Shown: one piece after another, positions 22,334 through 31,694 of the stretch
How positions within the stretch are numbered: the first letter of the stretch is position 1
Layout of the letters: each line of letters starts with the position of its first letter
Assembly (NCBI GenBank): GCA_025362495.1
Contig: JANYGI010000131.1
Coordinates: forward strand, 1-64,000
Length of the DNA: 64,000 nt
Reading direction: 5' to 3'
DNA from: Byssovorax sp.
GTDB lineage: Bacteria; Myxococcota_A; Polyangia; Polyangiales; Polyangiaceae
Notes under the pieces: model-generated
What the model was told of the DNA's origin: nothing
Seen by the model: only the letters and a program-made list of their open reading frames with translations
Database searches by the model: none
Program-made: the position numbers and the translations under genes

Positions 22334-22951
22334 GTGTCCGAGCCAGATCCCACCCTCCCGTTCTCGACGCGCCTCTGGTTTGCCTGGGTTTGCTTCTTTC
22401 GCGTCCTCTTCGACGCGACGTTCGCCGCGCGCGCCTTCGCCGCTCGCACGGCGCCGGAGCTGCTCGCCGGCCCTGCCTCTGCGCCGCCGACCTCGACGCC
22501 GCTCCTCGAGAGCGACGCTCCGAAATCGATCCGCTCGGTCTCGAAGGCCAGCGACAAGGTGCCCACGCCGCCGCCCGCCGATCCGGCGCTCCAGCTCCTC
22601 GCCTTGCTCCAGCGCGACGGGCGCTTCATCGACTTCCTCGAGCAGGAGATCGGGACCTTCCCCGACGTCGAGATCGGCGCCGTCGCCCGCGTCGTCCACG
22701 AGGGGTGTCGCAAGGCGCTCCACGCCCACGCGACGATCAAGCCCATTCGCAGCGAGGAAGAGGGCGCGACTGTCACTCTTCCCGAGGGCTACAGCCCCTC
22801 TCTCGTCAAGCTCAGCGGCAAGGTCCAGGGCGCGGCGCCGTACAAGGGTATCCTCCGCCACCGCGGGTGGCGCGCCACCGAGCTCGTGTTGCCGGTGCCG
22901 GTCAAGGGCCATGACAGCACCGTGATCGCCGCCGCGGAGGTGGAGCTGTGA
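22334..22951 (+). CDS. DUF2760-domain protein, first gene of Hsp70 cluster
   Basis: The 205-residue protein has a hydrophobic N-terminal helix (LWFAWVCFFRVLFDATFAARAF), a Pro/Ser linker, and a C-terminal domain from about residue 83: ALQLLALLQRDGRFIDFLEQ, VARVVHEGCRKAL and LRHRGWRATELVLP. This pattern is DUF2760, a family found next to Hsp70-like genes in Gammaproteobacteria and others. The DUF2760 gene overlaps the first Hsp70 gene by 4 bases (GTGA), indicating coupled translation. The GTG start at 22334 follows TACCAT by 6 bases. The function is unknown, but it is very probably a partner of the Hsp70s. Confidence 0.8.
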   Translation: MSEPDPTLPFSTRLWFAWVCFFRVLFDATFAARAFAARTAPELLAGPASAPPTSTPLLESDAPKSIRSVSKASDKVPTPPPADPALQLLALLQRDGRFIDFLEQEIGTFPDVEIGAVARVVHEGCRKALHAHATIKPIRSEEEGATVTLPEGYSPSLVKLSGKVQGAAPYKGILRHRGWRATELVLPVPVKGHDSTVIAAAEVEL

Positions 22952-24813
22952 GCGCTCGTTACGTCGTCGGGATCGATCTCGGCACCACCCACTCTGCCCT
23001 GGCCTACGCGCCGATCGAAGAGGGCGAATCGACGGCCGCGGTCGAGGTCCTCAGCGCGCCTCAGCTCGTCGCGCAAGGCACCCTCGAAGCGCGGTCGCTG
23101 CTGCCCTCGTTCCTCTACCTCGCCCACGCGAGCGAGGGCCCGCAGGCGCTGCCCTGGGACGCCGAGCGCACCTTCGTCGTCGGCGAGTACGCCCGCTCCC
23201 GCGGCGTCGACGCGCCCGCCCGCCTCGTCTCCAGCGCCAAGAGCTGGCTCAGCCATTCAGGCGTGGATCGACGCGGAGCGATACTGCCCCTCGGCGCCCC
23301 GGAAGACGTCGAGAAGATCTCCCCCGTCGAGGCCTCCTGGCGCCTGCTCGAGCACCTCGCCGAGGCCTGGGATGCGCGCTTTGCCGCGGCCGATCCCGCG
23401 CTCGCCCTCGCCCATCAAGAGGTCATCCTCACCGTCCCTGCCTCGTTCGACGCCGCCGCGCGCGATCTCACCGTCGAGGCCGCGACCGCCGCCGGGATCG
23501 AGAACCTCACCCTCCTCGAAGAGCCCCAGGCCGCCCTCTATGCGTGGACGCTCGCGCGCGGCGATCGCTGGCGCAAGGAGGTCAAGGTCGGCGATGTCCT
23601 CCTCGTCATCGACGTCGGCGGCGGCACCACCGACTTCTCCGCCATCGCGGCTCTGGAGCAGGACGGAGCCCTCGAGCTGGTCCGCGTCGCCGTCGGCGAT
23701 CACATCCTCCTCGGCGGCGACAACATGGATCTCGCGCTGGCCCACGTCGTGCGCCAAAAGCTCGTCGCCGAGGGCAAGGAGATCGATCGCTGGCAGATGA
23801 GCGCGCTCACCCACGCTTGCCGCGCCGCCAAGGAGAGCCTCTTGAACGACGCCTCGCTCGCGTCGGCGCCGATCGTCGTCGCCGGCCGCGGATCGAAGCT
23901 CTTCGGCGGCGGTCTGCGCTCGGAGCTCACCCGTGAAGAGGTGAATGCCACGCTCGTCGACGGCTTCTTCCCAGAGGTGCCCGCGTCGGCGCGGCCGTCG
24001 GTGCGGGCCCGCGTCGGCCTCACCCAGCTCGGCCTCCCGTACGCGGCTGACGCGGCGATCACGCGTCATCTCGCCTCGTTCCTGGCTCGCCAGGTCGGCG
24101 CGGTGGAGAAGATCCCCGGGTTCACCAGGCCCGCGCGTCAGGGCGACGCCGGCGATCGCGCCCCGAAGCTGCTCCACCCGACAGCGGTGCTCTTCAACGG
24201 AGGGGTGATGAAGGGCTCGGCCCTGGCCGCGCGCCTGATTGCCACTCTCAATGCCTGGCTCGAGGCCGATGGCGCCCCGCCGGCGCGGGTCCTCGCGGGC
24301 GCCGATCTCGATCTCGCCGTGGCCCGCGGCGCGGCCTCGTACGGCCTCGCTCGACACGGTCGTGGCCTGCGGATCCGCGGCGGAACGGCCCGCGCCTACT
24401 ACGTCGGTATCGAGTCCTCGGTGCCCGCGGTCCCCGGCGTCGAGCCCCCGATAACGGCCCTCTGCCTCGCCCCCTTCGGCATGGAAGAGGGGACCGAGGC
24501 CAGGCTCCCTCCGCACGAGCTCGGCCTCGTCGTGGGCGAGCCGGTCCGATTCCGCTTCTTCGGCTCCTCGGTCCGCCGCGAGGACCAGGCCGGGACCGAG
24601 CTCGACGCCTGGAAAGACGGTGAGCTGTCCGAGCTCTCGCCGATCGAGATCACCTTGCCCGCCGAGGGGCGGCGCGAGGGCGACGTCGTCCCCGTCAAGC
24701 TCCACGCCGCGGTCACCGAGATTGGCACTCTCCTGCTGGAGGCCGTCCCCGTGGCCCCGCTGAAGCCCGACGAGCGCTGGAAGATCGAGCTCGGCGTCCG
24801 CTCCGACAGCTGA
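22948..24813 (+). CDS. Divergent Hsp70-family chaperone 1
   Basis: The 621-residue protein begins VVGIDLGTTHS, the Hsp70 phosphate-1 motif (His where DnaK has Asn). Further ATPase motifs are VILTVPASFDAAARDLT, LLEEPQAALYAW, VIDVGGGTTDFS (phosphate 2) and LLGGDNMDLALA. The ATPase part runs to about residue 480. The C-terminal part is a beta-rich region of about 140 residues, shorter than DnaK's substrate-binding domain plus lid, and no helical lid is visible. It is translationally coupled to the DUF2760 gene upstream. Such short Hsp70s act with dedicated partners rather than as general chaperones; this is inference. Confidence 0.85.
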   Translation: MSARYVVGIDLGTTHSALAYAPIEEGESTAAVEVLSAPQLVAQGTLEARSLLPSFLYLAHASEGPQALPWDAERTFVVGEYARSRGVDAPARLVSSAKSWLSHSGVDRRGAILPLGAPEDVEKISPVEASWRLLEHLAEAWDARFAAADPALALAHQEVILTVPASFDAAARDLTVEAATAAGIENLTLLEEPQAALYAWTLARGDRWRKEVKVGDVLLVIDVGGGTTDFSAIAALEQDGALELVRVAVGDHILLGGDNMDLALAHVVRQKLVAEGKEIDRWQMSALTHACRAAKESLLNDASLASAPIVVAGRGSKLFGGGLRSELTREEVNATLVDGFFPEVPASARPSVRARVGLTQLGLPYAADAAITRHLASFLARQVGAVEKIPGFTRPARQGDAGDRAPKLLHPTAVLFNGGVMKGSALAARLIATLNAWLEADGAPPARVLAGADLDLAVARGAASYGLARHGRGLRIRGGTARAYYVGIESSVPAVPGVEPPITALCLAPFGMEEGTEARLPPHELGLVVGEPVRFRFFGSSVRREDQAGTELDAWKDGELSELSPIEITLPAEGRREGDVVPVKLHAAVTEIGTLLLEAVPVAPLKPDERWKIELGVRSDS

Positions 24814-24854
24814 ATCACAGAGCGTGATCGTCGAACAACTCGTCGCTCCGTTCA

Positions 24855-24915
24855 GCCCGTTCCCGTTCCCGTTCCCGTTCCCGGATCGGGCCGCGGGAAC
24901 GGGAACGGGAACGGG
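24855..24915. repeat. Hexamer-repeat hairpin between chaperone genes
   Basis: Four copies of GTTCCC (in CCCGTTCCC...) at about 24856-24883 are followed, after a short spacer, by the complementary GGGAAC hexamers at about 24894-24915. The two arms could form a stem of about 22 base pairs. It lies in the 205-base gap between the first Hsp70 gene and the LuxR-type regulator gene. Confidence 0.7.
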
Positions 24916-25018
24916 TCGGACCCGGAGACATCCTGTTGTTCGAGAATCGTGAACGGTGATGTAGGCCCACCTCACCGCTCTCCGGGGCGGCACCGTCCTT
25001 GCGATTGCTCGGAGCACC

Positions 25019-25597
25019 ATGCTCCAATTCAGCTCCGCGCAATCGCAGGTGTCGCCTCGAGTGGACACCGCACAACCGACGTCGGAGATCGAAGAGCCGG
25101 AGGAGCTCTCTCGCGCCGTCGAGATTGGCCTCCTGCGCGGCGCGCTCCTGGCGGCGCTGGAGACGATCCCCGTGCCCGCCGCGATCCTCACCGCGAGCGG
25201 GGCCGTGCGCTACGCGAACCAGGCCGCGCGCGAGCTGCTGAAGTGGGATCGTCGCGCTTTCGTGGGCGCCGCGGGTGGGCGCGGCTCGCCCGACGATCCG
25301 GCGGCCGCGTTCTTCGTGCAGCCGCTCGGCGTCGCTCACGCCGATCACGCGCTCGTCGTGCACCGCGCCGCCCCCGATCCCGGCCCCGCGGCGCTGCGCT
25401 GGCGCCGTCGCTTTCACCTCACGGGTCGCCAGACGGTCATCCTCGAGCACCTCGCCCGCGGGCTCGCGAGCAAGAGCATCGCCGAGATGCTCGCCTGCTC
25501 GGAGAAGACCGTGGCGTTCCACGTGTCATCGATCTTCGACAAGACCGGCGTCGACTCCCGCGCCGCCCTCGTCGCGCGCTTCTGGACCGAGCGATAG
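25019..25597 (+). CDS. LuxR-family transcription regulator with PAS-like sensor
   Basis: The 192-residue protein has a PAS-like sensor region in its middle (LETIPVPAAILTASGAVRYANQAARELL, quoted here only as AILTASGAVRYANQAARELL). A C-terminal LuxR/GerE helix-turn-helix follows at about 132-189: LTGRQTVILEHLARGLASKSIAEM, with ACSEKTVAFHVSSIFDKTG as the recognition part. It sits between the two Hsp70 genes on the same strand, with spacing that suggests its own promoter. It may control the chaperone cluster in response to a ligand or stress signal; that is inference from position. The ATG at 25019 starts a plausible N-terminus. Confidence 0.75.
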   Translation: MLQFSSAQSQVSPRVDTAQPTSEIEEPEELSRAVEIGLLRGALLAALETIPVPAAILTASGAVRYANQAARELLKWDRRAFVGAAGGRGSPDDPAAAFFVQPLGVAHADHALVVHRAAPDPGPAALRWRRRFHLTGRQTVILEHLARGLASKSIAEMLACSEKTVAFHVSSIFDKTGVDSRAALVARFWTER

Positions 25598-25692
25598 GCC
25601 GTCCACCCGGCTGGACGCGCGGTCCACGACGCTGGACGCCGCCCGCCGCTCGCTCGCCCGTTCGTGGACATCGCTGCTACCCTCCGCGCACC

Positions 25693-28458
25693 ATGCCGGC
25701 CCTCCCCTCGCGCGCGCGCCTCGCCGTCGGGATCGATCTCGGGACCACCCACACCGTCGTCGCGTGGGCCCCGCGAGACGGCAGCGCCGCGCCGCAGATC
25801 TTCCCGATCCCGCAGCTCGTCACCACCACCGAGGTCGCGGCGCGACCGCTGCTCGCGTCGTTCCTGTACGCGCCGATCGAAGGAGAGATCGCCGCCGATC
25901 CCTGGGGCGACGCGCCCTGGATCGTCGGCGAGCTCGCGCGTCGTCGCGGCGGCGAGGTCCCCGGTCGGCTGGTCGCTTCGTCGAAGAGCTGGCTCTGCCA
26001 TCGCGGGATCGATCCCACCGCGGCGATCCTCCCGTGGGGCGCCTCCGAAGAGGACACCGAGCTGCCGCGCGTCTCGCCGGTCGACGCCGCGGCGCGCCTC
26101 CTCGGTCACGTCGTTCAGTCGTGGAATCAAGCGTTTCCCGAGCACCCGCTCGCCGAGCAAGAGGTGGTGCTCACGGTGCCGGCGTCGTTCGACGAGGTCG
26201 CGCGCGAGCTCACGCTCGAGGCCGCGTCGCGCGCGGGGTTGCCGGTGCGCCTGCTCGAAGAGCCGCAGGCCGCGTTCTACGATTTCATGAACCGCGCGGG
26301 CCTCGCGGGGATCGAGGCCCTCCTCGCGCCGGGCGACGACGAGGCGCTGGTGCTGGTGTGCGACGTCGGCGGCGGCACCACCGATCTCTCCCTCATCCGC
26401 GTCGCGCGCGGCGCCGATCCCGCCGCGCCGTTCGAGGTCGCCCGCGTCGCCGTCGGCCACCATCTCTTGCTCGGCGGCGACAACATGGATCTCGCCCTCG
26501 CGCACGCCGTCGAGGCGCGAATGGTTGCAGCTCAAACGAAGCTCGACGCCGCGCGCTTCGGCCAGCTCGTGCTCGCGTGCCGCGCTGCGAAGGAGACGCT
26601 CCTCGGCGATGACGCGCCCGACGACGTCGCCGTCACGGTGCTCGCGCGGGGCGCCAGCCTGTTCGGCGGCTCGCTCACGGCGCGGCTCACGCGCGACGAG
26701 GCCTCACGCTTGGTGCTCGACGGGTTCTTCCCCGAGGCGCCGCGCGACGCGAAGCCGGCGCGCGCTCGTGGTGGCCTCGTCGCCGCGGGGTTGCCCTACG
26801 AGCGCGACGTCGCCGTGACCCGCCACGTCGCGCACTTCTTCGCGCGCCACGCGCCCGAGAGCCGCGGCCCGCGCGCCATCTTGCTCAACGGTGGCGTCTT
26901 CCGCGCGGCGCGCATCGCCGAGCGCCTCACCGCGGCGATCCAGGCCTGGGGCGGCCCGCCGATCGCCACGCTGCCGCTCGCCGATCCCGATCTCGCCGTC
27001 GCGCGCGGTGCCGTCGCCTACGCGCTCGCGCTCGCGGGGCGCGGCGTACGCATCGAGGGCGGCGCGGCCCTCGGCTACTACGTCGGCCTCGACGCGCCGA
27101 AGGGCGGCGGCCCGCGCTCCGCGGTGTGCGTCGTCCCGCGCGGCGCGAAGGAGGGCGTCGCGCAGAGCGCCGAGGGCCGCTCGTTCGCGCTGGTGCTCGG
27201 CACGAGGGTCCGCTTCGATCTCTTCGCCTCCGACGAGGCCAACCACCGCTCCGGCGAGGTGGTCACGCTCGACGACGACACCTTCGAACCGCTGCCGCCC
27301 GTCGCCGTGGCGTTCGAGGCTTCGGCGCGCAAAGCCGAGACGGTGAAGGTCGCCCTCGAAGGCGAGCTCTCGGCGATTGGCACCCTCGATCTCGCCTGCG
27401 TCGAGGTCGGCGCCCAAGCCGCGACCCCGCGACGATTTCGCCTTGTTTTCCAGCTCCGCGAGGCGCCCAGCGAGGCGCCTCCGCCGCCGGCCGCGGGACC
27501 TTCGCAGGCGCCGCGCGATCGCTCGCGCGAGGACGCGCGCGAGGCCATCCTCGTCGTCTTCGGCCGCGGCCGCTTCGACGTCACGCCGCGCCAGGTGAAG
27601 GATCTCGTCCGCGATCTCGAGCGCCTCCTCGGCGAGCGCGCGGCGTGGACGACGGCGCTCTCGCGCGATCTCTTCGACACCCTCGCGGCGGAGTCGAAGG
27701 CGCGACGCCGATCGCCCGAGCACGAGCGGGTGTTCTGGCAGCTCGCGGGCTACTGCGGCCGGCCCGGCTTCGGCGCGCCGGGCGACGACGAGCGGGTCGC
27801 ACGCCTCGCGCCGCTCTTCGCGGAACGCCTTGTCTTCCCGAATGAACCGCGGATCTGGCAGCAGTTCTGGATCGCCTGGCGACGCCTCGCCGGAGGCCTC
27901 GACGAGGCCGCGCAGACCACGATGCGCGACGTGCTCGATCCGCTCCTCGCCCCGGCCGCGTCGCGCCTCAAGAAGCCGAAGGGCTGGAAGCTCGAGGCCG
28001 AGACCGATCTCCTCGACCTCGTCTCGTCGCTCGAGCGCGTCCCGCCCCTCCGCAAGAGCGAGCTCGGCGGCTGGATCCTCGAGCGCACGTGGACCTCGCG
28101 TGATCCTCGCCTGTGGGCCGTCCTCGGGCGCCTCGGCGCGCGCGTGCCCACGTACGCGGGGCTCCACCACGTCGTCTCGGCGATGGTGGCCGAGCGCTGG
28201 CTCGACCACCTGCTGCGCGAGAAATGGGAGACGCTCCCCACCGCGCCCGAGGCCGCCGTGCGCCTCGCCCGCGTCACCGACGATCGCGCGCGCGACGTCT
28301 CCGAGCGCGCCCGCCGCGAGGTCGATCGCCGCCTCGTCACGATCGGCGCGAAAGAAAGCTGGATCCGCGCGGTGCGCGAGCTCGTCCCCGTCGAGGAGGC
28401 CGAGCGCGCGGCGTTCTTCGGCGAGGGCCTCCCCGTGGGTCTGCGGCTGATCGAATGA
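25693..28458 (+). CDS. Divergent Hsp70-family chaperone 2 with DUF3731-type C-terminal region
   Basis: The 921-residue protein starts AVGIDLGTTHTVVAW, with the other Hsp70 ATPase motifs VVLTVPASFDEVARELT, LLEEPQAAFYDF, VCDVGGGTTDLS and LLGGDNMDLALA. After a beta-rich middle and a Pro-rich linker at about 595-615, a helical C-terminal region of about 300 residues follows (RFDVTPRQVKDLVRDLERLL, WQLAGYCGRPGFG, WQQFWIAWRRLAGG, LGRLGARVPTYAGLHHV). This matches DUF3731, seen only on such Hsp70s. The frame is open to 24949, but the ATG at 25693 precedes the conserved motif and TACCCT lies 9 bases before it. It pairs with Hsp70-1 and the DUF2760 protein. Confidence 0.85.
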   Translation: MPALPSRARLAVGIDLGTTHTVVAWAPRDGSAAPQIFPIPQLVTTTEVAARPLLASFLYAPIEGEIAADPWGDAPWIVGELARRRGGEVPGRLVASSKSWLCHRGIDPTAAILPWGASEEDTELPRVSPVDAAARLLGHVVQSWNQAFPEHPLAEQEVVLTVPASFDEVARELTLEAASRAGLPVRLLEEPQAAFYDFMNRAGLAGIEALLAPGDDEALVLVCDVGGGTTDLSLIRVARGADPAAPFEVARVAVGHHLLLGGDNMDLALAHAVEARMVAAQTKLDAARFGQLVLACRAAKETLLGDDAPDDVAVTVLARGASLFGGSLTARLTRDEASRLVLDGFFPEAPRDAKPARARGGLVAAGLPYERDVAVTRHVAHFFARHAPESRGPRAILLNGGVFRAARIAERLTAAIQAWGGPPIATLPLADPDLAVARGAVAYALALAGRGVRIEGGAALGYYVGLDAPKGGGPRSAVCVVPRGAKEGVAQSAEGRSFALVLGTRVRFDLFASDEANHRSGEVVTLDDDTFEPLPPVAVAFEASARKAETVKVALEGELSAIGTLDLACVEVGAQAATPRRFRLVFQLREAPSEAPPPPAAGPSQAPRDRSREDAREAILVVFGRGRFDVTPRQVKDLVRDLERLLGERAAWTTALSRDLFDTLAAESKARRRSPEHERVFWQLAGYCGRPGFGAPGDDERVARLAPLFAERLVFPNEPRIWQQFWIAWRRLAGGLDEAAQTTMRDVLDPLLAPAASRLKKPKGWKLEAETDLLDLVSSLERVPPLRKSELGGWILERTWTSRDPRLWAVLGRLGARVPTYAGLHHVVSAMVAERWLDHLLREKWETLPTAPEAAVRLARVTDDRARDVSERARREVDRRLVTIGAKESWIRAVRELVPVEEAERAAFFGEGLPVGLRLIE

Positions 28459-28496
28459 AAGCGCCCCCGCCCTCGCCGTGTAAGCTCCAGCCGACG

Positions 28497-28979
28497 ATGG
28501 CTGACGGGACCCTCGGCCGGCTCCTCGATCCGCGCGCCCTCGACGAGGGCGCGGGCCCGCGCGGCCGCGTCCAGATCACGGTGCCCGCCGCGTGGCTCGA
28601 AGGCGGGTGTCGCATCGAAATCCTCACGCCGCGCCGCCTCCCCTGCGCGCGCTGCGACGGCGGCGGCTGCGACGCGTGCGGCAAGAGCGGCGTCCTCCGC
28701 GCGCCCGACGACGAGGCCGCGCGCCGCCTCGAGATCACGCTCCCGGGCACGCAAAATGAAGCCGTCGCGCTCCGCCTCGCCGATCCCTTCGGCCCCGGCG
28801 TCGTCGACCAGCTCATCGTCGAGGTCCGCGTCGGCGCGCCCTCCGCGGGGGTGACGCTCCTCGTCGACGACCTGCCGGCGGACGAGCCCGAGCCGCTCCC
28901 GCTCATCCCGTGGCGCGGGGTGATCATGGCCGCGATTGCGACCGCCGCCGCGATCCTCGTCGCCGTCCTCGCGCGCTGA
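28497..28979 (+). CDS. J-domain-less, DnaJ-like zinc-cluster protein with C-terminal membrane anchor
   Basis: The 160-residue protein has no J domain (no HPD). Residues 22-45 and 76-113 look like DnaJ C-terminal substrate-binding strands (GRVQITVPAAWLEGGCRIEI; RRLEITLPGTQNEA; LADPFGPGVVDQLIVEVRV). Between them is a compact four-cysteine cluster, C50, C53, C58 and C61, reading PCARCDGGGCDACGKSG, like a shortened DnaJ zinc finger. Residues about 141-159 are hydrophobic, a tail anchor. An ATG at 28455 overlaps the Hsp70-2 stop (ATGA) and would add 14 residues; 28497 is preferred because TAAGCT lies 10 bases before it. I infer a role as substrate-binding partner of the Hsp70s at the membrane. Confidence 0.65.
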   Translation: MADGTLGRLLDPRALDEGAGPRGRVQITVPAAWLEGGCRIEILTPRRLPCARCDGGGCDACGKSGVLRAPDDEAARRLEITLPGTQNEAVALRLADPFGPGVVDQLIVEVRVGAPSAGVTLLVDDLPADEPEPLPLIPWRGVIMAAIATAAAILVAVLAR

Positions 28980-28997: not shown

Positions 28998-31694
28998 ATG
29001 GTCCGAAGCCGCTCGGCGTTTCCGCTCCTCGTCGTCCTCTGCGCACCGTTCGTCGCCGCCTGCAGCGAACGCTTCTTCCCGCCGCCGCTGCCCGTCGTGC
29101 CCGATCCTCCCGTCGTCACGGTCGACGACGTGATGGACGATCTCCCGCAGTCGTGCGCCTTCGAGTGCGGAGGCTGCGCCGAGCCCGCCACGGCCTTTGA
29201 TTGCCCCACGATCAAGGCCTGGGACAAGGTCCCTCACGCCGCCGCCTGCGGCTCGTGGGACGGCACCTATCCCGCCCCCACACCGGGCCAGTGCACCGCC
29301 GCCGAGCCCACGGGCGAGGCGGCGCGCAAGGCCGGTCCGTTCGCGGGCGGCGTCGTGCTGCCGGACGGGCATCGCATCCAGCCCGCCGGGCGCAACGTGG
29401 TCTTCGCCGAGAAAGACCTCGTCGGCGGCTTCCCGATGAGCGTGATGCCGCTCTCGGGCACCCACTTCGCGCTCGTCTCCGACGGCGGCATCAAGGACAA
29501 CGCCCTTCGCCTCGTCGACATCGACGCTCTCGCCGGCACCGGCGCTCCGGTCGCCGCCTACGTGCCTTTCCCACGGCCGACCTCGCTCTTCTACGGCATG
29601 TCGTTCCTCCCGCCGGGCAAGGTCCTGGCCTCGGGCGGCGGCGATGGAAAGGTCTACGCGTTCGACGTCGACACCGCCAAAGGCTCTCTCGCCCGCGCCG
29701 CGTCGCGCGACGTCGATCTGGGCAAGGGCACCGACGATTCGCCTTATTTCGTCGGCGCGATCGCCACAACGGCCGACGGCACGCGGCTCCTCGTCGGCCC
29801 CTCGGATCACGCCGCCTCGGTGCTGGTGATCTCGCTCGCCGACGCCGACTACGGCAAGACGATCGCCACCCTCGCGCTGCCCGGCACCCGCGCGGTCTTC
29901 GACATTCGCCTCGATCCCTTCGACCCGACTGGCACCCTCTTCTATGCCACCGATCAGTCGCAGTCGCGGCTGCTCGAGATCGACGGCGCGAAGGGCACGT
30001 TGAAGCGCTCCTTCCCGCTCGACAAGAACCCTTCGCAGATCCTCTTCCTCGACGCCACGTACCTCGTCGTCGCCGAGACTGACAGCGACGTGCTCGCCGT
30101 CGTCAACCGTGTCACGGGCATGGTCGAGGCCCGTGTTCCTGTCTTCGAGAAGGACGCGCCTCACGGCTTCTCCCCGAGCGGGATGAGCTACGATCCCGCG
30201 ACCAAGCGCCTCTATGCCGTGCTCGCCGGCGTCAACGCGGTCGAGGCGTACGACGTGGGCCCGGGCGCGCCGCCGACGATAACCCCGGTCGGCCGCCTCC
30301 CCACGGCCTGGTGGCCCACGGGCGTCATGACCCACACCGATGGATCCCTGGTGGTCATCACCGGCAAGGGCGTCGGGACTGGCACCGACAACAAGCAGTA
30401 CACCTGGGGCGAGGGCTCGATCACCGATCATCTTCACGGCAGCGTCCAGCACATCCCCGCGGCGCTCCTCGGCGATCTCACGGCGTCGACCAAGGTCGTC
30501 GAGGCCACGCGCCGCCTCGACGAGCTCGACGGCGGCCCGCAGATCACCTGCCCCAAAGGCACGTTCGACTTCCCGATTCCCAAGGACAACCAGAGCGGCC
30601 CCTCGGCCCAGATCAAGCACGTGATCCTCGTGGTGCGGGAAAACAAGACCTACGACGCCGTCTTCGGCGATCGCGCCGACCTCGGCGACGGTGATCCCAA
30701 GCTTACCATGGCCAGCGACGTCGCGACGCAAGAGGCCATCTGGAAGAACGCCCGCGGCATCGCCAGGGGGTTCACCAATTTCGACAACTTCTACACCGAC
30801 GCCGAGCAGTCGATCCAGGGCCACACCTGGACGGTCTACGGCCGCACCACCGATTTCATGGAGCGCACCTGGCTCGATATCTGGGGGCGCTCCACCCGCA
30901 CCATCACCACCCCGACCAACGTGGTCGACGGCCCGGAAGAGGGCGGCGTCTTCACCTGGTTTGCCGACGCCGGCATTCCCATGGATAACATGGGAGAGAT
31001 CGTCGGCGGCGGTACGCCCGACGGCGACTACCCCGGCCTGCTCTACGCGCAGAATCGGCCCGACATCGACAAGTCCTGTTACATGGGCGGTCGCGTCCGC
31101 CTCCGCTGCGATCTCAAGCCCTTCACCTACGCCTTGCAGACCAACGATCACACCTACGGCGGCCAGGGCGGGGCCGCCGCGCCCGAGGTGATGATCGCCG
31201 TCAACGACGAGGCGATTGGCATCCTCCTCGACGCCCTCTCCCACAGCCCGACCTGGAAAGACTCGCTCCTGATCGTGACCGAGGACGATCCTCAGGATGG
31301 CGGCGATCACGTCGATCTCCACCGATCGCTCCTCTTCATGGCCTCTCCGTGGATCAAGCGCGGCTACGTGAGCCACGGGCACTACGACATGGCGAGCGTG
31401 TACCGCCTCGTCGCGCAGATCTTCGGCATGCCCTACCACAACGAGATGATGCGCCATGCACAGGCGCCCCTCGACGCCTTCACCAGCACGCCGGACTACA
31501 CGCCGTACACCTACGCCCCGCGGACGATCAACGCGCCTTGCAACGCGCAGGAGTCGCCGTACTCGCGCCAGGCCGCGTCGTGGGATTTCGAGGATCTCGA
31601 CGATCAGCCCGGCCTCAGCGCCCAGATCATGGAGATGATGAAGAAGTCCCCGGCCGATCGCGGGGTGAAGGTGCTGCCCCCCCGAACGCGCTGA
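28998..31694 (+). CDS. Lipoprotein with beta-propeller and phosphoesterase domains
   Basis: The 898-residue protein has a lipoprotein signal peptide (Cys22, AAC). A cysteine-rich stretch (CAFECGGCAEP) precedes a propeller-like region at about 130-480 made of repeated strands such as FALVSDGGIKDNALRLVDI and GRLPTAWWPTGVMTHTDGSL. From about 535 comes a phosphoesterase/phospholipase-C-like domain: IKHVILVVRENKTYDAVFGD, FTNFDNFYTDAEQSIQGHTW, and later SLLIVTEDDPQDGGDHVDLH then SHGHYDMASVYRLVAQIFG, with the acidic and histidine residues expected to bind metals. It is anchored outside the cytoplasm. TAACCT lies 7 bases before the start. The substrate may be a phosphodiester. Confidence 0.8.
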   Translation: MVRSRSAFPLLVVLCAPFVAACSERFFPPPLPVVPDPPVVTVDDVMDDLPQSCAFECGGCAEPATAFDCPTIKAWDKVPHAAACGSWDGTYPAPTPGQCTAAEPTGEAARKAGPFAGGVVLPDGHRIQPAGRNVVFAEKDLVGGFPMSVMPLSGTHFALVSDGGIKDNALRLVDIDALAGTGAPVAAYVPFPRPTSLFYGMSFLPPGKVLASGGGDGKVYAFDVDTAKGSLARAASRDVDLGKGTDDSPYFVGAIATTADGTRLLVGPSDHAASVLVISLADADYGKTIATLALPGTRAVFDIRLDPFDPTGTLFYATDQSQSRLLEIDGAKGTLKRSFPLDKNPSQILFLDATYLVVAETDSDVLAVVNRVTGMVEARVPVFEKDAPHGFSPSGMSYDPATKRLYAVLAGVNAVEAYDVGPGAPPTITPVGRLPTAWWPTGVMTHTDGSLVVITGKGVGTGTDNKQYTWGEGSITDHLHGSVQHIPAALLGDLTASTKVVEATRRLDELDGGPQITCPKGTFDFPIPKDNQSGPSAQIKHVILVVRENKTYDAVFGDRADLGDGDPKLTMASDVATQEAIWKNARGIARGFTNFDNFYTDAEQSIQGHTWTVYGRTTDFMERTWLDIWGRSTRTITTPTNVVDGPEEGGVFTWFADAGIPMDNMGEIVGGGTPDGDYPGLLYAQNRPDIDKSCYMGGRVRLRCDLKPFTYALQTNDHTYGGQGGAAAPEVMIAVNDEAIGILLDALSHSPTWKDSLLIVTEDDPQDGGDHVDLHRSLLFMASPWIKRGYVSHGHYDMASVYRLVAQIFGMPYHNEMMRHAQAPLDAFTSTPDYTPYTYAPRTINAPCNAQESPYSRQAASWDFEDLDDQPGLSAQIMEMMKKSPADRGVKVLPPRTR

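Follow-up and report, generated by a model that had tools for sequence, protein, structure and literature searches.

A conserved unit of DUF2760 and two divergent Hsp70 proteins, possibly a J-protein-independent chaperone pair at the membrane

Gene organization of the locus

The window, by which we mean the whole stretch of 64,000 nucleotides that was analysed, is part of a 10.8-Mb draft genome of Byssovorax sp., whose relatives include Sorangium and other Polyangiaceae. At positions 22334-28979 five genes lie in one orientation, on the plus strand, and encode in this order a DUF2760 protein, a first Hsp70 (Hsp70A), a PAS-LuxR protein, a second Hsp70 carrying DUF3731 (Hsp70B) and a small protein with a cysteine motif. 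The DUF2760 gene (22334..22951, 205 aa) overlaps by four bases, GTGA, with hsp70A (22948..24813, 621 aa), whose product matches PF00012 and consists of an ATPase domain and an SBD-beta-like domain, with no lid. On the same strand and 3' of the hsp70A stop, a strong hairpin, (CCCGTT)n/(AACGGG)n, is recognized at 24856..24915 by its dG and z-score. It is followed by a gene for a protein of 192 aa with PAS and LuxR-type HTH domains (25019..25597; PF13188 and PF00196, GerE/LuxR), for which GTG at 25061 is an alternative start, and by two tandem dyads, GTCCAN6TGGAC, between this gene and hsp70B (25601..25637, assigned to no strand). The gene hsp70B (25693..28458) encodes 921 aa, and 38 nt after it comes the gene for a zinc-motif protein of 160 aa (28497..28979), characterized by alignments, hhalign and a C-terminal transmembrane segment and here called the zinc protein. 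Its start at 28497 is consistent with the alignment of its relatives, and the alternative ATG at 28455 would overlap the stop of hsp70B. No Rfam family was found in the 19-32 kb region.

An initial annotation of this DNA had described the same five genes, with the LuxR gene between the two Hsp70 genes and the zinc protein after them, and all its statements about the sequence hold. The transmembrane segment of the zinc protein, the hairpin and the tandem dyads were not part of it.

Two Hsp70 proteins distant from DnaK

The two Hsp70s score 65.7 and 47.2 bits against the DnaK profile TIGR02350, which has a cut-off of 822.55. For both, HscA is the best NCBIfam match, yet the scores of 94 and 90 bits stay far below its cut-off of 620, and since the neighbourhood also holds neither isc genes nor HscB we reject membership in HscA; what the locus has in common with HscA-HscB is this best match and an operon that includes a small gene for a dedicated partner. 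YegD membership is ruled out by the scores against profile PRK11678 (18.8 and 24.3 bits, cut-off 331), and the position of YegD in our tree is unreliable (branch 7.5). That tree, made from the ATPase domains, places Hsp70A and Hsp70B apart from DnaK, HscA and HscC, with 4.4 changes per site on the branch between them and a support of 100/100. HscC groups with DnaK and not with Hsp70A and Hsp70B, though on a long branch, and membership in HscC is thereby ruled out as well.

Judged from the alignment, both Hsp70s are shown to retain the residues for ATP binding and hydrolysis, with the equivalents of D8, K70, E171, D194 and T199 being invariant or conservatively replaced. DnaK N170, which adjoins the catalytic E171, is E in 41 of 41 sequences of both Hsp70A and Hsp70B. 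The hydrophobic interdomain linker VLLLD, which in its DnaK form takes part in the action of the J-domain (reviewed in PMC6843406), is absent from both proteins and is in Hsp70A replaced by RIRGGTARAYYVGIE. DnaK DLVLLDVTP aligns without gaps to a conserved glycine-rich motif, which in the Hsp70A of this genome reads LRIRGGTARAYYVGIE; the replacement has the form RIxGGTA in Hsp70A and a similar R-I-x-G-G in Hsp70B.

Hsp70A aligns to residues 3-598 of Hsp70B only, with 43% identity, and ends there, so that it has no lid; the fold of the beta substrate domain appears to be kept. The AF2 model of Hsp70B (pLDDT 86, pTM 0.83) has an ATPase domain (1-450), a beta domain (455-587), a disordered link (587-608) and an all-helical part (609-917) that includes DUF3731, the latter matching PF12531 with 252.7 bits against a gathering cut-off of 25.

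A pair of distinct Hsp70-fold proteins whose C-termini are unequal calls to mind the Hsp110/Hsp70 pairs, and by analogy Hsp70B might be an exchange factor or holdase for Hsp70A, with DUF2760 as merely a targeting subunit. The two are indeed paired paralogues that differ in their C-termini, Hsp110 linkers are likewise less hydrophobic (PMC6843406), and Hsp110 Sse1 was matched when the model of Hsp70B was searched with Foldseek. However, the best match in that search was DnaK (E 1e-21), with Sse1 scoring below it, all catalytic residues are retained in Hsp70B, and DUF3731 as modelled is not a lid-type helix bundle and does not resemble the Hsp110 lid. We thus find it unlikely that Hsp70B acts as an Hsp110.

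The DUF2760 protein

The DUF2760 protein (PF10816, 158.2 bits against a gathering cut-off of 25) has a hydrophobic N-terminal helix, a variable linker and a conserved domain at residues 83-205 that closes with AEVEL. Its AF2 model has a pLDDT of 84, and sequence and fold searches of the PDB gave no match, nor any likeness to a known co-chaperone. In gammaproteobacteria the N-terminal helix is by hydropathy clearly transmembrane, and elsewhere it is hydrophobic with one or more charges. In this genome it contains an arginine, and could be amphipathic rather than transmembrane. The protein is probably membrane-associated. AEVEL, or a motif very similar to it, forms the C-terminus of nearly every sequence, including the copies that do not overlap hsp70A.

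Conservation of the three-gene unit

Since DUF3731 by itself proved too variable to serve as a search profile, full-length Hsp70B was used as the query in the search of contigs, which returned 80 named loci, mostly from Burkholderiales, Methylococcales, other gammaproteobacteria including Vibrio, and Myxococcota, and one from a Verrucomicrobiia MAG. Among the 74 that had sufficient upstream sequence, DUF2760, Hsp70A and Hsp70B were intact together in 65, mostly in beta- and gammaproteobacteria and Myxococcota. Between hsp70A and hsp70B the gap measures less than 100 bases in 58 of 68 loci. In 53 of 67 loci the gap between the DUF2760 gene and hsp70A is -4. The overlap is thus deeply conserved, but a fixed stoichiometry of the two proteins, which the initial annotation had read from it, does not follow. 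Physical linkage is not obligatory, as Hsp70B was found with neither Hsp70A nor DUF2760 nearby in 8 of the 74 loci. We found no other neighbour family that is widely common to the Hsp70B loci of this survey. Genes for cold-shock proteins, phasins and small secreted proteins adjoin some copies, each recurring in just 3-5 loci.

Within the order the same picture emerges at the level of whole genomes. DUF3731 and DUF2760 are both present in the same 34 of 57 genomes and both absent from the other 23 (Fisher 2e-16, a value that counts genomes and not independent gains or losses, and has no phylogenetic correction). This holds also where the two genes are apart, by 34 kb in one genome (G012) and on different contigs in two others (G038 and G051), and co-inheritance is therefore not explained by linkage alone. 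The three genes are conserved as a unit and occur together across phyla, and the earlier view that DUF2760 and two divergent Hsp70s recur together is borne out. No paper naming DUF2760 or DUF3731 was found in our literature search.

The neighbouring LuxR and zinc-protein genes

Among 60 genomes of the family the LuxR protein has two weak relatives (36% identity), and no relative was found beside a DUF3731 gene at any other locus examined. The PAS-LuxR gene is a local insertion seen at this locus only, outside the conserved module, and the insertion is derived, because hsp70A and hsp70B abut in most organisms. The hairpin after hsp70A has a perfect stem of 22 bp, with a dG of -85.7 kcal/mol and a z of -8.4 for the 137 nt at 24814-24950, and occurs only once in the genome. 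It is probably a transcript end or barrier, and the LuxR gene, hsp70B and the zinc gene would then probably form a second transcript. The dyads upstream of hsp70B are spaced 21 bp apart and are a possible operator.

The zinc protein has the motif CxxC[DES]GGGCxxCxxxG (in its relatives C-A-x-C-[DES]-GGGC-x2-C-x3-G) with flanking strands, and its C-terminal transmembrane segment is predicted by hydropathy. It had been described as a DnaJ-like protein without a J-domain. A J-domain or HPD is indeed absent from its 160 aa, its profile aligns to the C-terminal and zinc domains of the DnaJ proteins of this genome with an hhalign probability of 95%, and its weak PDB matches are mainly DnaJ chains. 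No match was obtained in Pfam, and as the hhalign probability is only 5.5% when one zinc-free domain of the CbpA type is the target, the likeness to DnaJ is probable but not proven. The protein is probably a tail-anchored J-less derivative of DnaJ CTD-I.

The zinc family is present in 33 of the 60 family genomes, including this one. In the 30 other genomes that have it together with DUF3731 the two are close in G070 only (6.2 kb); in Sorangium So ceGT47 the zinc gene lies 3.2 kb from the DUF3731 gene. In both of these, the only linked cases besides the present locus, unrelated genes intervene. Separate contigs in draft genomes are not strict proof of distance, but in three genomes of single-chromosome scale (G081, G087 and G102) the distance between the two ranges from 0.6 to several Mb. 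DUF3731 occurs without the zinc protein in twenty family genomes, and the zinc protein is found in only 1 of the 80 named Hsp70B loci. Linkage is thus almost absent in the neighbourhood survey that the initial annotation had put forward as a check, which is largely the outcome that it had named as speaking against the zinc protein. Membership of the zinc protein in the machine is not supported, and we reject it as an obligatory Hsp70 partner.

These results bear on the five genes as one machine, in which the LuxR protein would control, and the zinc protein assist, both Hsp70s. Here the genes are adjacent and co-oriented, with the short gap between hsp70B and the zinc gene, the zinc protein has its DnaJ-like match, and DUF3731 is slightly more common in genomes with the zinc protein (31 of 33 against 20 of 27 others, p 0.06). 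Such a machine is nevertheless very improbable, given a zinc gene that is unlinked or missing nearly everywhere else, a LuxR gene unique to this locus, without close relatives beside other copies, and a strong hairpin between hsp70A and the LuxR gene. We reject an operon of all five genes on account of this hairpin and the absent conservation. The idea of a specialised machine, which the initial annotation had extended to all five genes, survives for three of them, on the grounds of operon conservation, co-occurrence and divergence from DnaK, and finds no support for the LuxR and zinc proteins. What the evidence supports is a unit of DUF2760, Hsp70A and Hsp70B; a machine of five parts is not supported.

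As for the zinc protein, it could quite conceivably, if with somewhat less than an even chance, be an independent membrane-anchored holdase or redox chaperone for Fe-S or respiratory proteins. In 8 genomes its gene adjoins one for a 4Fe-4S/CCG membrane protein, and in 3 a glutaredoxin-rhodanese protein is encoded nearby. Chloroplast ZnJ6 is likewise J-less and membrane-associated with CxxC motifs (PMC7865324), and both ZnJ6 and ZnJ2 resemble the zinc protein in being J-less and having the DnaJ-type cysteine motif. Neither of the two neighbours is, however, present in this window, and ZnJ6 has four CxxC motifs against two here, the bacterial protein being one compact two-CxxC unit with CTD-I-like flanking strands and a C-terminal anchor. 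In G079 the zinc gene adjoins the phosphoesterase gene that it also adjoins at the present locus, and the Hsp70s are not there. By setting the zinc protein apart from the machine a wrong annotation is avoided.

A possible chaperone unit at the membrane

We think that DUF2760, Hsp70A and Hsp70B may well form a membrane chaperone unit, in which DUF2760 has the role of a J-protein and the Hsp70s are an asymmetric pair, a proposal with about equal chances of being right or wrong. The N-terminal helix of DUF2760 would sit on the inner membrane, and the domain in the cytosol, together with the conserved tail at the C-terminus, would recruit Hsp70A and Hsp70B, as a J-protein does for DnaK. The lidless Hsp70A, and Hsp70B with DUF3731 as a clamp, would work as an asymmetric pair driven by ATP, holding or remodelling client proteins at the membrane in oxidative stress and in dormancy or development. 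At the present locus the orphan PAS-LuxR that interrupts the unit may control hsp70B from the dyads, and the tail-anchored zinc protein would be a separate membrane chaperone whose gene is now located downstream.

A review from 2021 lists three types of bacterial Hsp70, DnaK, HscA and HscC, all with J-proteins (PMC8215388). The unit shares with DnaK-DnaJ-GrpE the ATPase fold, the catalytic residues and the beta substrate domain, but is without the VLLLD linker, the canonical lid, a J-protein and GrpE, and a long branch separates it. E. coli HscC with the tail-anchored DjlB and DjlC is also a specialised Hsp70, thought to act at the membrane via anchored partners (PMC8215388), whereas the partner here is DUF2760 without a J-domain, and there are two Hsp70s, outside the HscC branch. 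The unit is a widespread variant of the Hsp70 kind, possibly a J-independent pair at the membrane. A more speculative extension, which we put forward tentatively and regard as rather doubtful, is that the unit represents a fourth class of Hsp70 machine in bacteria, in which an obligate asymmetric pair works with no J-protein or GrpE and is recruited and controlled by DUF2760 at the membrane via the AEVEL tail. A widespread three-gene unit whose two Hsp70s lack the J-dependent linker, and in which DUF2760 is a constant partner, would be a directly testable case of how an Hsp70 cycle might proceed with no J-protein.

Noncanonical Hsp70s of myxobacteria are known for regulatory phenotypes, SglK in motility and StkA in EPS (PMC8265645, PMC4319316), and by analogy with StkA the Hsp70-fold pair might be a regulatory scaffold that switches a membrane or envelope process. 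MXAN_5323 (WP_011555288.1) of M. xanthus, a noncanonical Hsp70 of 925 aa with a domain match in the NBD only, fails to complement a dnaK mutant of E. coli (PMC8265645), which would fit such a scaffold as well as the chaperone unit proposed above. It is probably the orthologue of Hsp70B, an assignment based on length and class and not on sequence, the Myxococcus Hsp70B proteins in our survey being 924-925 aa. Its deletion leaves motility unaltered (PMC8265645), however, the beta substrate domain is kept, and the module is present in many bacteria without social motility, so we hold a purely regulatory role to be improbable. For the chaperone unit at the membrane, MXAN_5323 is the strongest evidence from outside this analysis. 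Through the three-gene unit DUF2760 and DUF3731 gain a shared functional context and a link to one probable existing mutant of M. xanthus. The main text of PMC8265645 makes no mention of operon partners or DUF3731 for MXAN_5323. The deletion lowers sporulation and survival of H2O2, and the gene is induced by H2O2, goes up in development and is among the few whose transcription is not unchanged or decreased by heat (PMC8265645).

Sequence elements between the two Hsp70 genes

The stretch that separates hsp70A from hsp70B in the window holds several repeats besides the gene for the PAS/LuxR-type protein. A perfect hairpin, (CCCGTT)n/(AACGGG)n, is located 3' of hsp70A (24856-24915) and is found once in the genome. 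The LuxR gene is separated from hsp70B by tandem GTCCAN6TGGAC dyads (25601-25637), which account for two of the eight such sites in the whole genome. At its other end, the ATG (25019) is flanked by 16-nt arms that are 94% complementary (25000-25047), and these could possibly form a second operator or an RNA hairpin.

Neighbouring genes and domain variants

The genes that adjoin the module of DUF2760 and the two Hsp70s in other bacteria vary between the compared loci (L numbers). Immediately 5' of DUF2760 there is a phasin-like gene in three betaproteobacteria (L133:6606-7124, L161:1857-2372 and L163), and in Methylococcales (L128, L131, L141, L154 and L162) a small conserved signal-peptide-like protein of about 126 aa, for which a Pfam search gave no match. 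A cold-shock-protein-like gene, named by eye like the phasin-like one, adjoins the module in three unrelated genomes (L138:6401-6604, L184:5985-6185 and L187:13133-13342). The DUF2760 protein of Vibrio (L185, L187) has a repetitive VEKPVEKIVEVEK coiled-coil-like spacer that joins the transmembrane helix to the domain, and two genomes carry, at a distance of some 3 kb from the complete DUF3731 gene, a partial second DUF3731 fragment (genome G002, contig C128:1494-1667; genome G040, contig C250:8660-8830).

The gene for the small zinc protein is followed in the window by that of a phosphoesterase-family protein (28998-31694), and the same pair occurs at L096 without the Hsp70s. Directly downstream of the zinc protein in eight Polyangiaceae loci (L106, L108-L111 and L113-L115) is a membrane 4Fe-4S/CCG protein of about 770 aa, with HEAT-repeat and other conserved genes in the surroundings, and at L099 (9651-11248), L101 and L116 a fusion of glutaredoxin and rhodanese is encoded after the zinc protein.
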